From Demequina pelophila (lineage in GTDB: Bacteria; Actinomycetota; Actinomycetes; Actinomycetales; Demequinaceae): 64,000 nt of DNA. Position numbers and translations under genes: made by a program. Location of the stretch: assembly GCF_000971175.1 (NCBI RefSeq), contig NZ_BBLY01000001.1, forward strand, positions 62,001-126,000. The letters are read 5' to 3'. The notes beneath the pieces are model-generated. The model worked only from the letters and a program-made list of their open reading frames with translations, was not told the origin of the DNA and made no database searches. Each line of letters opens with the position of its first letter. Within the stretch, counting starts at the first letter, position 1. Positions 9,442 to 13,296 of the stretch are shown here, piece after piece.

Positions 9442-10743
9442 TCAGTTCGCGGGCGAGGCCGCCCCCGCGTCGGGGGTCGGGTCCGGTGCGGGGCCGGCCT
9501 CGGGCGCGGTCGTCGGGTCCTCCTCGGGCATCGGCTCCGGTGGGACCGTCGCCTCACTCGCGGAAGGGTCGGGGGAGTCCCCGCCCGCCTCCGCGTCGTC
9601 GGGACTCAGGGCCGTCCCGTCCGCACCCACCACGTCCCCGTCGACGCGCGTCCGGCGCAGCTCGACCTCGCCCGACGTCGCGATCACCGCGCCCGCGCCG
9701 CTCGTCGCTACGTTGCCCACCAGCGCGGAGGCGGAGATGCGCACGTCGTGCTGCCCGCCGCTCACGTGGAGGCCGCCGCCGGCGGCCGTCGCGGTGTTGT
9801 CCACCACCTGGCTGCCGGACACGTCGACCGCGGCCTCCTTCACCGCGATGGCGCCGCCGTGCGCGCACCAGTTCGACGTGAAGGTGGACCCGCTGATCGC
9901 GACGGGCTCCGCCGTGCCGACCGCCAGCACCGCCCCGCCGTGCCCGTCCGCGCTCGATCCGCAGGTGTGGCCCGTGACGAACGTGCGCTCGAGCGCGAGC
10001 GTGCCGCCCCGGACGGCCACCGCACCGCCGCCGCCCAGGTCCTCGAGCCCCAGGCCGCCCTCCAGGTCGCGCGGGCCGCCCTCCGCGTTGCCGTCGACCA
10101 GGGTGAGGCCCACGAGCTCGATGCGCGGGGTGGCGCGGGTGGTGCAGTCGTCCGCGAGGGTGCCCAGCCCCGCCTCGCACGCGTTCGCGTACAGCAGCGG
10201 CCGCTCGTGCGCCCCCGCGAGCGCCACCGTGCCGCCGCCGTCGATCCGGACGCGCTCGAGCGGCGCCCCGCCCTCCTCACAGCCCACGGTGTTGCACACG
10301 GTGAGGGTGGTGTCGAGCACGATGACGTGCAGCGCGGTCCCGCAGTCGAAGGAGATGTCCCCGCCCGCGCGCACGGCGGCCGCGACGGCCGCGGACGTGC
10401 ACGTCTCGGGCGACCCGCCGCCCACGATCACGCGGTCCTCCTCCACCGCCACGATGCCCTGAGCGTCCCCGGCCGATGCGCCGGTCGCCCCGCGCCTCAC
10501 GTCCGGCATGGGCTCGGGAGAGGGTGCCGCCGCCGCGGGTGCGGTGACCGCGGGCTGGACCTCGGGCGCGGCCTGGGGCCTCGCGGTGGGCGATGCGGTG
10601 GCGGCCTCGGGTGCCGATCCGCCGGTGGGGGCGGGCGACGCCCCGTACGCCCGGGGAGTCGCGGGAGGCGCGACGGTGCACGCGGTCAGTCCCAGAAGGG
10701 CGACCGCCGCGAACCCGAGGAGTGCCGGGGACGACTCACGCAT
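9442..10743 (-). CDS. Exported lipoprotein with a right-handed beta-helix
   Basis: A 433-residue protein with a lipoprotein signal (hydrophobic stretch ending LTAC, Cys22), a Pro/Ala-rich linker to about residue 85, and a repetitive body. The body has many short turns such as GGGGAVAVRGGTLALERTF, GHGGAVLAVG, AHGGAIAVKEAAVDVSG and GGGLHVSGG, the pattern of parallel beta-helix (PbH1) proteins. Several cysteines (ETC, DCG, VCN, GCEEGG, ACEAG, DDCTT, HTCG, NWCAH) could form disulfides outside the cell. A disordered acidic Pro tail ends the protein. Beta-helix proteins often bind or cleave polysaccharides, but no catalytic residues are recognisable. Confidence 0.72.
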   Translation of the reverse strand: MRESSPALLGFAAVALLGLTACTVAPPATPRAYGASPAPTGGSAPEAATASPTARPQAAPEVQPAVTAPAAAAPSPEPMPDVRRGATGASAGDAQGIVAVEEDRVIVGGGSPETCTSAAVAAAVRAGGDISFDCGTALHVIVLDTTLTVCNTVGCEEGGAPLERVRIDGGGTVALAGAHERPLLYANACEAGLGTLADDCTTRATPRIELVGLTLVDGNAEGGPRDLEGGLGLEDLGGGGAVAVRGGTLALERTFVTGHTCGSSADGHGGAVLAVGTAEPVAISGSTFTSNWCAHGGAIAVKEAAVDVSGSQVVDNTATAAGGGLHVSGGQHDVRISASALVGNVATSGAGAVIATSGEVELRRTRVDGDVVGADGTALSPDDAEAGGDSPDPSASEATVPPEPMPEEDPTTAPEAGPAPDPTPDAGAASPAN

Positions 10744-10840: not shown

Positions 10841-10925
10841 TGCTAGTGGCGAATGTGGCCACCATCACACCCCGGGAGGCGTCGTTTCGTCGGGTGGGCC
10901 GTCGGGGGTGGCTGAGAATGGTCGC

Positions 10926-11885
10926 GTGACGATGGACGTCTTCCCCGACCTCAGCCTGGCCGAGGCCGCGCGCGAGCTTGCCGCGCACCTCGAGGGCCGT
11001 CCGGGACCGCGTCGCGACGGCACCCTCATGCGGGTCTCGGACGCGCTGTCGCGGCTGGAGGATCCGCACCTCGACCTCGACATCATTCACATCGCCGGAC
11101 TCGACGGACGGGCGTCGACCGCCCGCATGACCGAGGCGATCCTGCGCCGCCACGGGCTGCGCACCGCGCTGCTGGCGCCCGCGCGTCGTGGCGCAGAAGC
11201 GCTCTTCGTGGACGGCGCCGAGCTCGGGCCGGCCGCCCTGGTCGCGGCCTGGCGCCGCGCCGCCCCCGCGCTCCATCATGTGGACGCGCGTGCCGGCGAG
11301 GCGGGCCGCGCGACGCACGAGGAGGCGCTGCTGGTGCTCGGCCTCGTGGCCGCGCGCGCGGCCGAGGTGGACGTGGTGGTCCTCGAGGCCGCCGGCACGG
11401 ACAGGGACGCGACGCACGCGGCCGATGCACGGGTCGCCGTCCTCGCGGACGTCGCCCCGGCGGGCGCCGGGACGGGTGCCTCGCGCGATGCCGCGGCCGG
11501 GACTCCGGCCACCCTCACGCCCGCCCAGGCGGCCCGCGCCGCGGCCGGGATCATCAAGCCGGGCGCCGCGGTGGTGTGCGGGCCGCAGCGCCCCGCGGCC
11601 GCGACCGTGATCGCGCAGGCGGTGGCCGCGCGCGGCGCCGTGCTCGCGGTCGACGGCCAGCGCCTGTCCGTCACCGATCGGCGCGAGGTCGAGCAGGGGC
11701 AGGTCGCCACGCTCACCACCGTCGCCCGCACGTACCGGGACGTCTTCGTCCCGGGCACGGGGGAGCGGGAGGCGCACCACGCGTTGCTCGCGCTCGCCGC
11801 GTGCGAGGCGTACGTGGGCGCCGGGATCCCGCGCGCGCTGCACCTGCCGTCCGTGGCGCACGGACTCGCCGCCGCTCCTGCATGA
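10926..11885 (+). CDS. FolC-like pseudoenzyme (degenerate Mur-ligase-type protein)
   Basis: A 319-residue protein clearly related to the FolC encoded next to it. Shared blocks include ASTARMTEAILRRHGLRTALL against TSTARMTESLVREHGLRTGLL, AAGIIKPGAAVV against KAGIIKDGAAVV, and YRDVFVPGTGEREAHHALLALAA against YEDVFVPMYGAYQAHNALLALAA. The ATP-binding loop is destroyed: GTNGKTS in FolC is GLDGRAS here, losing the essential lysine. The SPHL and GGVWDATN segments are also changed, and the C-terminal Mur-ligase domain is missing. The reading frame is intact with normal codon use, so it looks like a maintained non-catalytic relative rather than a recent pseudogene. Start GTG 10926 is chosen because GAGAAT at 10914-10919 sits 6 nt upstream as a leaderless -10; ATG 10932 is the alternative. 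Confidence 0.75.
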   Translation: MTMDVFPDLSLAEAARELAAHLEGRPGPRRDGTLMRVSDALSRLEDPHLDLDIIHIAGLDGRASTARMTEAILRRHGLRTALLAPARRGAEALFVDGAELGPAALVAAWRRAAPALHHVDARAGEAGRATHEEALLVLGLVAARAAEVDVVVLEAAGTDRDATHAADARVAVLADVAPAGAGTGASRDAAAGTPATLTPAQAARAAAGIIKPGAAVVCGPQRPAAATVIAQAVAARGAVLAVDGQRLSVTDRREVEQGQVATLTTVARTYRDVFVPGTGEREAHHALLALAACEAYVGAGIPRALHLPSVAHGLAAAPA

Positions 11886-11898
11886 AACACTGGGGCCC

Positions 11899-13296
11899 AT
11901 GACCGACCTTGACCTCGGTGGCCTGAGCCTCGAGGAGGCCGAGCGCGAGATCTACGCGCACATCGTCTCCCGCAACCCCGAGCACGACTTCGAACCCACC
12001 CTCGACCGCGTTCGCGCCGCCTGCGACCTGCTGGGCAGCCCGCAGGACGCCTACCGCGTGGTCCACGTCACCGGCACCAACGGCAAGACGTCCACCGCGC
12101 GCATGACCGAGTCGCTGGTGCGCGAGCACGGCCTGCGCACCGGGCTGCTCACCTCGCCGCACCTCACCACGGTGCGCGAGCGCATCCAGATCGACGGCGA
12201 GCCCATCTCCCGCGAGGACTTCGTGCGGCTGTGGCTCGACGTCGCGCCCATCCTGCACCTGGTGGACGCGCGCTCTGCGGAGTCCGGCGGGCCGCGCATG
12301 AGCTTCTTCGAGGTGCTCGTGGTGCTCGCGCTCGCCGCCTTCGCGGACGCCCCGGTGGACGTCGCGGTCGTCGAGGTGGGCATGGGCGGCGTCTGGGACG
12401 CCACCAACGTGGTGACCGCCGAGGTCGCCGTCGTCACCCCCGTGAGCCTCGACCACCAGGAGTGGCTGGGCGACTCGCTCGCGGACATCGCGGCGGAGAA
12501 GGCCGGCATCATCAAGGACGGCGCCGCCGTGGTGGTCGCCCACCAGAGCGAGTCCGTCGAGCCCGTCCTCGCGGTCGCGGCGCAGGAGCACTCCGCGCGC
12601 GCCTACTGGGAGGGCGAGGACCTCGAGGTGGTCGAGCGCACCCCCGGCGTGGGCGGCCAGCTGGTCACCCTGCGCACGCCCGCGGCCCGCTACGAGGACG
12701 TCTTCGTGCCCATGTACGGCGCGTACCAGGCGCACAACGCGCTGCTCGCGCTCGCGGCCACGGAGCTGCTGATGGCCGGCGGGGGAGAGCCCGCCGCGCT
12801 GTCCGGCGAGGTGGTCGAGGCGGGCTTCGCCGCCGCCACGTCCCCGGGCCGGCTCGAGGCGGTGCGCACGTCGCCGCTGATCCTGGTCGACGCCGCGCAC
12901 AACCCCCACGGCATCGAGGCCATGGTCGGCGCGCTCGACGAGTCGTTCACCTTCGAGACGCTCGTGGGCGTCGTCGGCATCCTGCGCGACAAGGACGCCG
13001 AGGGCATCCTCGCCGCGCTCGAGGGCGCGCTCGAGCACGTGGTGATCACCGCATCGGCCTCCCCCCGGGCCATCCCGGTCGACGAGCTCGCGCCGCTCGC
13101 GCACCAGATCTTCGGCGAGGACCGCGTCACGGTCGCGGACACGCTGCCCGACGCGATCGACCACGCCGTCCAGCGCGCGGAGCGCGACTCGGACATCGGC
13201 GCCGGCGTGCTCGTGGTCGGCTCGGTCACGCTGATCGCCGAGGCGCGCATCCTCACCGGCGCGGACCGCCGCAAGGGCACCGGACAGGCGCGATGA
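11899..13296 (+). CDS. folC: Bifunctional folylpolyglutamate/dihydrofolate synthase
   Basis: A 465-residue Mur-ligase-superfamily enzyme that adds glutamate to (dihydro)folates using ATP. The P-loop GTNGKTS is at about 59-65, followed by TSPHL. The catalytic EVGMGGVWDATN segment and SLDHQEWLG with EKAGIIKDG are all present, as is the C-terminal domain with DAAHNPHGIEAM. It begins 13 nt after the FolC-like gene. AACACT 7 nt before the ATG may be a weak leaderless -10. Its stop overlaps the DUF4233 gene start as ATGA. Confidence 0.96.
   Translation: MTDLDLGGLSLEEAEREIYAHIVSRNPEHDFEPTLDRVRAACDLLGSPQDAYRVVHVTGTNGKTSTARMTESLVREHGLRTGLLTSPHLTTVRERIQIDGEPISREDFVRLWLDVAPILHLVDARSAESGGPRMSFFEVLVVLALAAFADAPVDVAVVEVGMGGVWDATNVVTAEVAVVTPVSLDHQEWLGDSLADIAAEKAGIIKDGAAVVVAHQSESVEPVLAVAAQEHSARAYWEGEDLEVVERTPGVGGQLVTLRTPAARYEDVFVPMYGAYQAHNALLALAATELLMAGGGEPAALSGEVVEAGFAAATSPGRLEAVRTSPLILVDAAHNPHGIEAMVGALDESFTFETLVGVVGILRDKDAEGILAALEGALEHVVITASASPRAIPVDELAPLAHQIFGEDRVTVADTLPDAIDHAVQRAERDSDIGAGVLVVGSVTLIAEARILTGADRRKGTGQAR

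Follow-up and report, generated by a model that had tools for sequence, protein, structure and literature searches.

A truncated FolC-like frame upstream of folC

Among described proteins, a close counterpart of the frame studied here is the FolC of M. tuberculosis (2vor/2vos), with which it shares N-domain homology over most of its length (phmmer, E = 7.2e-27) and a similar predicted fold; unlike that enzyme, it has no P-loop, no substrate residues and no C-terminal ligase domain. In the accessible text of two papers (PMC1971073, PMC5061717), FolC2 denotes a COG1478, CofE-like protein of a different family, which has nothing in common with the gene described here beyond the notion of a second gene of the FolC type. 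Because that name is taken in print, we label the main gene FolC-A and the second FolC upstream of folC FolC-B. Literature on second FolC genes, on actinobacterial folC duplication and on folylpolyglutamate or Mur-ligase pseudoenzymes yielded no FolC pseudoenzyme in the accessible portions of the matches listed.

In the window (the whole 64,000-nucleotide stretch of DNA that was analysed), the gene order is ileS, a rhodanese-type gene, a class IV aminotransferase gene (minus strand), a 433-amino-acid open reading frame (ORF; minus strand), the truncated frame, here called the relic, then folC and a gene for a DUF4233 protein. The 433-amino-acid ORF (9442-10743) has no Pfam match, lies head-to-head with the relic and, judged by eye, resembles right-handed beta-helix proteins.

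From its GTG, which is homologous to the start codon of intact relatives, the relic encodes 319 amino acids and is open, as the preliminary description had it, up to a stop at 11883-11885, 13 nt before folC (Table 1). Our query P0002 comprises 317 residues of it, counted from the ATG at 10932. The same description placed a FolC-like protein directly before folC, and the alignment bears this out: the relic and the adjacent FolC are 39% identical over 317 alignment columns, nearly the whole length of the relic (E = 5e-39). Against the NCBIfam FolC model NF047860 the relic scored 127.6 bits (E = 6e-37; cut-off 700) and against TIGR01499 74.5 bits (cut-off 162.65), below the cut-off in both cases; the adjacent FolC scored 544.7 bits (likewise below 700) and 340.3 bits, respectively. 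A Pfam search of the relic gave no match. Its codon use, earlier called normal, is abnormal in base composition: GC1/GC2/GC3 are 0.85/0.58/0.92, against 0.725/0.475/0.956 (SD, 0.008/0.003/0.016) in the N-terminal parts of 12 intact copies, and alanine makes up 25% of the residues.

Table 1. Features of the FolC-B relic and its surroundings (window coordinates)
Feature	Position	Strand	Basis or remark
Hexamer GAGAAT where intact folC-B genes are preceded by a CACAAT/CAGAAT block; surrounding conserved block eroded	10914..10919	+	Hexamer read by eye
FolC-B relic: truncated ORF descended from FolC; ligase motifs and C-terminal domain missing	10926..11885	+	Homology, alignment, tree
Degenerate P-loop GLDGRAS	11097..11117	+	Alignment; GTNGKTS in 28/28 intact FolC-B and 41/41 FolC-A
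APARR replacing TSPHL	11175..11189	+	Alignment
Shifted-frame segment: 4-nt deletion, then 2-nt deletion; ends where the former MSFFE substrate-binding segment began	11289..11311	+	
Deletion junction: GLAAAPA-stop where relatives run on GFAGATSPGR and the ligase domain	11862..11885	+	Alignment
13-nt spacer carrying the folC upstream block AACACT	11886..11898	+	11/13 identical to closest relative G009 (count by eye)
folC (FolC-A), intact bifunctional-type FolC	11899..13296	+	

Distribution and descent of FolC-B

We searched 44 genomes of the genus, that of the relic included, and examined 3.5- to 10-kb stretches around folC in 39 of the genomes other than that of the relic. A complete FolC-B of 468 to 504 amino acids lies upstream of folC in 28 of the 44, and all 28 keep GTNGKTS, TSPHL, MSFFE, GIGGxRDATN, SPGR and AHNPHG in the alignment. 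The preliminary description had proposed looking for orthologues next to folC; these are full-length and intact, and the truncated, motif-less form occurs in 1 of the 44 genomes (3 of them not judged), its sole carrier being the genome of the relic, where we found no second FolC-B copy. The three left unjudged (G035, G036 and G041) have one FolC each on contigs that end close by. The 50%-complete assembly G011 has both FolC genes in frameshifted pieces, the FolC-B P-loop being intact, and these were excluded from the alignments. FolC-B is absent from 11 of the 44 genomes, where the whole-genome search gave one FolC each, and in 10 of these the 6.7 to 7.5 kb before folC hold no convincing FolC-B remnant (best E = 1.5). 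In G040, the 8 kb examined hold one FolC only. A scan of genome contigs for close relatives gave two loci, each a complete FolC-type gene from another organism. The gap between folC-B and folC-A measures 1.1 to 1.7 kb in related genomes at the folC loci L044, L046, L061, L077, L041, L056, L059 and L067.

An intact FolC-B also served as query against 198 genomes from 72 genera of the order, 13 of these genomes belonging to this genus. No genome outside the genus had two strong FolC matches among the matches listed (down to about E = 1e-101); two genomes of a sister genus have one FolC apiece, and a genome from a third genus gave no match. The relic also exposed a tandem FolC-A/FolC-B pair that, among the matches listed, is confined to its own genus.

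In a tree of 70 sequences, the relic falls inside a 13-member FolC-B clade (UFBoot, 100) as sister to the FolC-B of G009 (UFBoot, 69). Its branch measures 1.451 substitutions per site, compared with 0.047 for the G009 FolC-B and 0.121 for the FolC-A of its own genome. With outgroups added, the 28 intact FolC-B sequences are monophyletic (100); where they join, near the base of the family, is not firmly resolved (86 or lower), and a Dollo count on that tree gives seven losses of FolC-B if one basal gain is assumed. Distribution and tree together indicate that folC-B, a tandem FolC paralogue, entered the lineage no later than the base of the genus. Orthology of the relic with FolC-B rests on clade membership, shared position and junctions: like FolC-B, it lies upstream of folC, begins at the homologous start codon and is followed by a 13-nt spacer, as in G009. 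It differs from FolC-B in having none of the six motifs and no C-terminal domain. A FolC duplication restricted to this genome was considered and rejected, since the relic groups with the older FolC-B clade.

FolC-A and FolC-B (L039-L078; in the window, 11899-13296) are near-fixed for differing residues at nine sites, for example W166 in the former and R166 in the latter, within the GGxxDATN loop. At these sites the relic has three B-type residues, one A-type residue, three other residues and two gaps.

Loss of motifs and of the ligase domain

The broken motifs and missing C-terminal ligase domain reported in the preliminary description were confirmed by alignment. Besides the P-loop and TSPHL replacements (Table 1), MSFFE is gone, the GGVWDATN loop (GGxxDATN) reads A-GTDRDATH, and the EK of EKxGIIK is replaced by AA; the SPGR linker and the whole glutamate-ligase domain (PF02875, present in the adjacent FolC) are missing. 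By the marks of a FolC enzyme, namely, the P-loop GTNGK[TS], the PF02875 domain and the curated family score cut-offs, the relic falls short on all three. The C-terminal domain was probably lost by an internal in-frame deletion, because G009 has the homologous start GTGACGATGGA and the 13-nt spacer in common with the relic; the native stop appears to have been kept.

The relic contains no stops and a single frameshift, which is compensated. The original frame is restored 23 nt later, and reading the segment as shifted raises the number of matched bases by 6 to 8 in each of 12 comparisons, with a median reached in 0.3% and a minimum reached in 2.3% of 3,000 simulations. Two more candidate patches (coding-sequence nucleotides 261 to 277 and 540 to 590) showed no clear excess over shuffled controls. 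Of the usual signs of a pseudogene, the loss of motifs and of a domain relative to intact orthologues is present, and stops or uncompensated frameshifts are absent. As the frame is open and its frameshift compensated, we call the gene a decaying relic and not a proven pseudogene.

That the assembly or the sequencing has corrupted a truly intact folC-B is hardly credible: the case is an isolated one, and nothing further speaks for an error, but 151 of 304 aligned residues differ, spread along a gene free of stops, which is not the effect of a few indels. Furthermore, the genome has a completeness of 99.99% and a contamination of 0.03%, and the motifs of the adjacent FolC-A are normal.

Constraint on the relic branch

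On the branch of the relic, FolC-B dN was 0.37, equal to the FolC-A dS of 0.37 on the same branch and hence to the neutral expectation. We fixed dS to this FolC-A value and obtained an omega of 1.06, not different from 1 (lnL -5865.5, compared with -5865.8 at omega = 1; 0.3 apart). Other fixed values of dS gave omega values of 2.2 (dS = 0.18), 0.69 (dS = 0.55) and 0.51 (dS = 0.74), and omega = 1 was rejected at dS = 0.55 and at dS = 0.74. By segment, with dS at 0.37, omega was 0.76, 1.59 and 0.85, neither flanking value being clearly different from 1 and the middle one probably being inflated by indel-rich alignment. Fourfold differences to the 12 relatives ranged from 0.29 to 0.37 for FolC-A and from 0.39 to 0.51 for FolC-B. 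Synonymous sites are near saturation, and dN/dS therefore hinges on how dS is set.

Among residues invariant in both FolC-A and FolC-B, the relic keeps 38 of 69 (the classes being drawn from 41 FolC-A and 28 FolC-B; a slightly different site set gives 38/71); it keeps 28 of 46 residues invariant in FolC-B only, 67 of 130 invariant only in the 12 closest relatives and 22 of 59 at variable sites. Conserved sites are hardly spared, although variable sites are kept somewhat less. Moreover, bases invariant in the 12 relatives changed in the relic at 80/259, 85/278 and 43/111 sites of codon positions 1, 2 and 3 (31%, 31% and 39%), compared with 8/267, 13/291 and 17/128 (3%, 4.5% and 13%) in the intact FolC-B of G009 and 13/353, 8/389 and 4/137 (3.7%, 2.1% and 2.9%) in the FolC-A of the relic's own genome. 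The absence of stops, which we considered as proof of selection on the frame, was rejected as such, since zero stops are unremarkable under permutation (P = 0.16 to 0.33). As a caution, at 78% GC selection is only weakly indicated by a 319-codon open frame in which blocks can be recognised.

Traces of evolution as a coding sequence

When the foreground dS was left free, omega was 0.24 to 0.27, and this fit was better than that of a wholly neutral branch by 14.2 to 14.4 lnL and better than that of a constrained-then-neutral branch by 4.7 to 7.3 lnL. The free fit needs about four times the FolC-A dS, and background omega with dS > 8 is just 0.6 to 3.0 lnL worse and so fits almost equally, from which we take dS to be saturated. 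Fixing dS at 0.37 was 15.5 lnL worse than leaving it free; the synonymous sites of the relic therefore changed faster than those of FolC-A, which may reflect release from a constraint on codon usage. The dN/dS check thus has two outcomes, about 1 when calibrated on FolC-A, the value that the preliminary description had named as contrary to its proposal, and about 0.25 when dS is free.

The relic is identical to the clade majority at 153 of 304 residues, compared with 122 ± 4 when its changes were permuted within codon position, and its HMM score is 234.8, compared with 104.8 ± 14; the excess in identity holds without the indel-rich patches (126 compared with 103 ± 4). Changes at codon positions 1 and 2 are correlated at 0.30 (0.31 to 0.46 in three intact copies), those at positions 2 and 3 at 0.15 and those across codon borders at 0.06 to 0.07. 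In addition, T is kept at 62 of 86 second positions but at 7 of 24 first positions. Hydrophobic residues gave no support for special retention (41/75, compared with 46/102 for polar residues; P = 0.23). An AlphaFold2 model (pTM, 0.81; pLDDT, 77.6), built from three aligned FolC-type sequences, resembles FolC structures, with 2vor/2vos as the best PDB matches (TMq, 0.78 to 0.80); as that alignment consists of FolC relatives, the model is no proof of folding in the cell. On these signals, the relic was evolving as a coding sequence along some of its branch at least, while constraint on the enzyme was later, or by degrees, absent.

A retained pseudoenzyme, that is, a truncated N-domain still made for a non-catalytic job, for example as a partner of FolC-A or in folate or dihydropteroate binding, would account for the open frame with its codon-structured substitutions, the compensated frameshift, the retention of T at second positions, the low omega with dS free and the FolC-like model. 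We nonetheless hold this reading to be unlikely: no second genome of the genus has the form, every complete FolC-B keeps its motifs, residues invariant throughout are kept no more often than those invariant in close relatives only, omega is about 1 with the FolC-A dS and not clearly different from it in the two flanking segments, and the literature matches listed are, in their accessible portions, silent on FolC pseudoenzymes. Its fuller version, in which a folate-ligase duplicate shed its motifs and ligase domain within one species' lineage and yet persists as an open frame whose translated and folded N-domain would bind FolC-A or a precursor of folate and modulate the glutamylation of folates, is less probable still. 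A selected non-catalytic role is possible; nothing indicates what job it would be, and the form is in no other relative examined.

We consider it likely that the relic is a lineage-specific decaying remnant of a tandem FolC duplicate, most likely an ordinary loss of a redundant duplicate and not a new regulatory protein. Retention by selection, as proposed in the preliminary description, is not well supported by the calibrated dN/dS, the hardly spared conserved sites and the single genome with the motif-less form; of its three proposals, namely, a regulatory subunit of FolC, a decoy for it and a relic of tandem duplication, the last fits best, and a retained non-catalytic protein is a possible but poorer fit. 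folC-B would have become dispensable in this lineage, presumably because FolC-A has the same job. Under relaxed selection, substitutions and small indels would have removed the P-loop, substrate-binding and linker motifs, and one or more internal in-frame deletions, ending short of the folC-A upstream block, a putative promoter, would have taken out the C-terminal ligase domain, with decay still going on. If translated, the product would be an N-terminal Mur-ligase-type domain without ligase activity. The open frame may best be accounted for by the few stop-prone codons at 78% GC and by a late or partial release from constraint. Loss of the folate pathway as the cause was not supported, dihydropteroate synthase being present in 43 of the 44 genus genomes, this one included. 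What looked like an orphan pseudoenzyme can thus be read, with intact relatives around it, as the loss of a duplicate gene.

Upstream blocks of folC-B and folC-A

The conserved 50-base block upstream of folC-B is eroded in the relic, which has 16 of its 28 core bases, compared with 16.8 ± 1.9 in 500 random 50-mers of the window; the TG and the A.AAT of a putative -10 element can still be read by eye. A count anchored at the start codon gave 17 of 26 clade-invariant upstream bases changed, and we preferred the gapped count, which allows shifted spacing. The erosion is a further point against a retained pseudoenzyme, and expression of the relic is probably weak or absent. The folC-A upstream block is kept, with 10 of 11 clade-invariant bases unchanged. 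This conservation bears on another explanation, in which a useless protein keeps its frame open since a stop would harm the downstream folC through transcription termination. Such polarity would reconcile the open frame and the compensated frameshift with the loss of all motifs; given that folC-A has a conserved upstream block of its own and that gaps of at least 1 kb separate the two FolC genes in several relatives, we regard it as very improbable and favour decay of the duplicate.

A scan for sigma-70 promoters found none. In close relatives (L039-L077), the folC-B upstream block is strongly conserved, with GTGTC, AGCAC and CGTGCCGCACAATTG, the hexamer lying about 8 nt before the start, which points to leaderless transcription. 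The block upstream of folC-A is similar, likewise short-spaced, and mostly reads TGxxA[CG]ACT.
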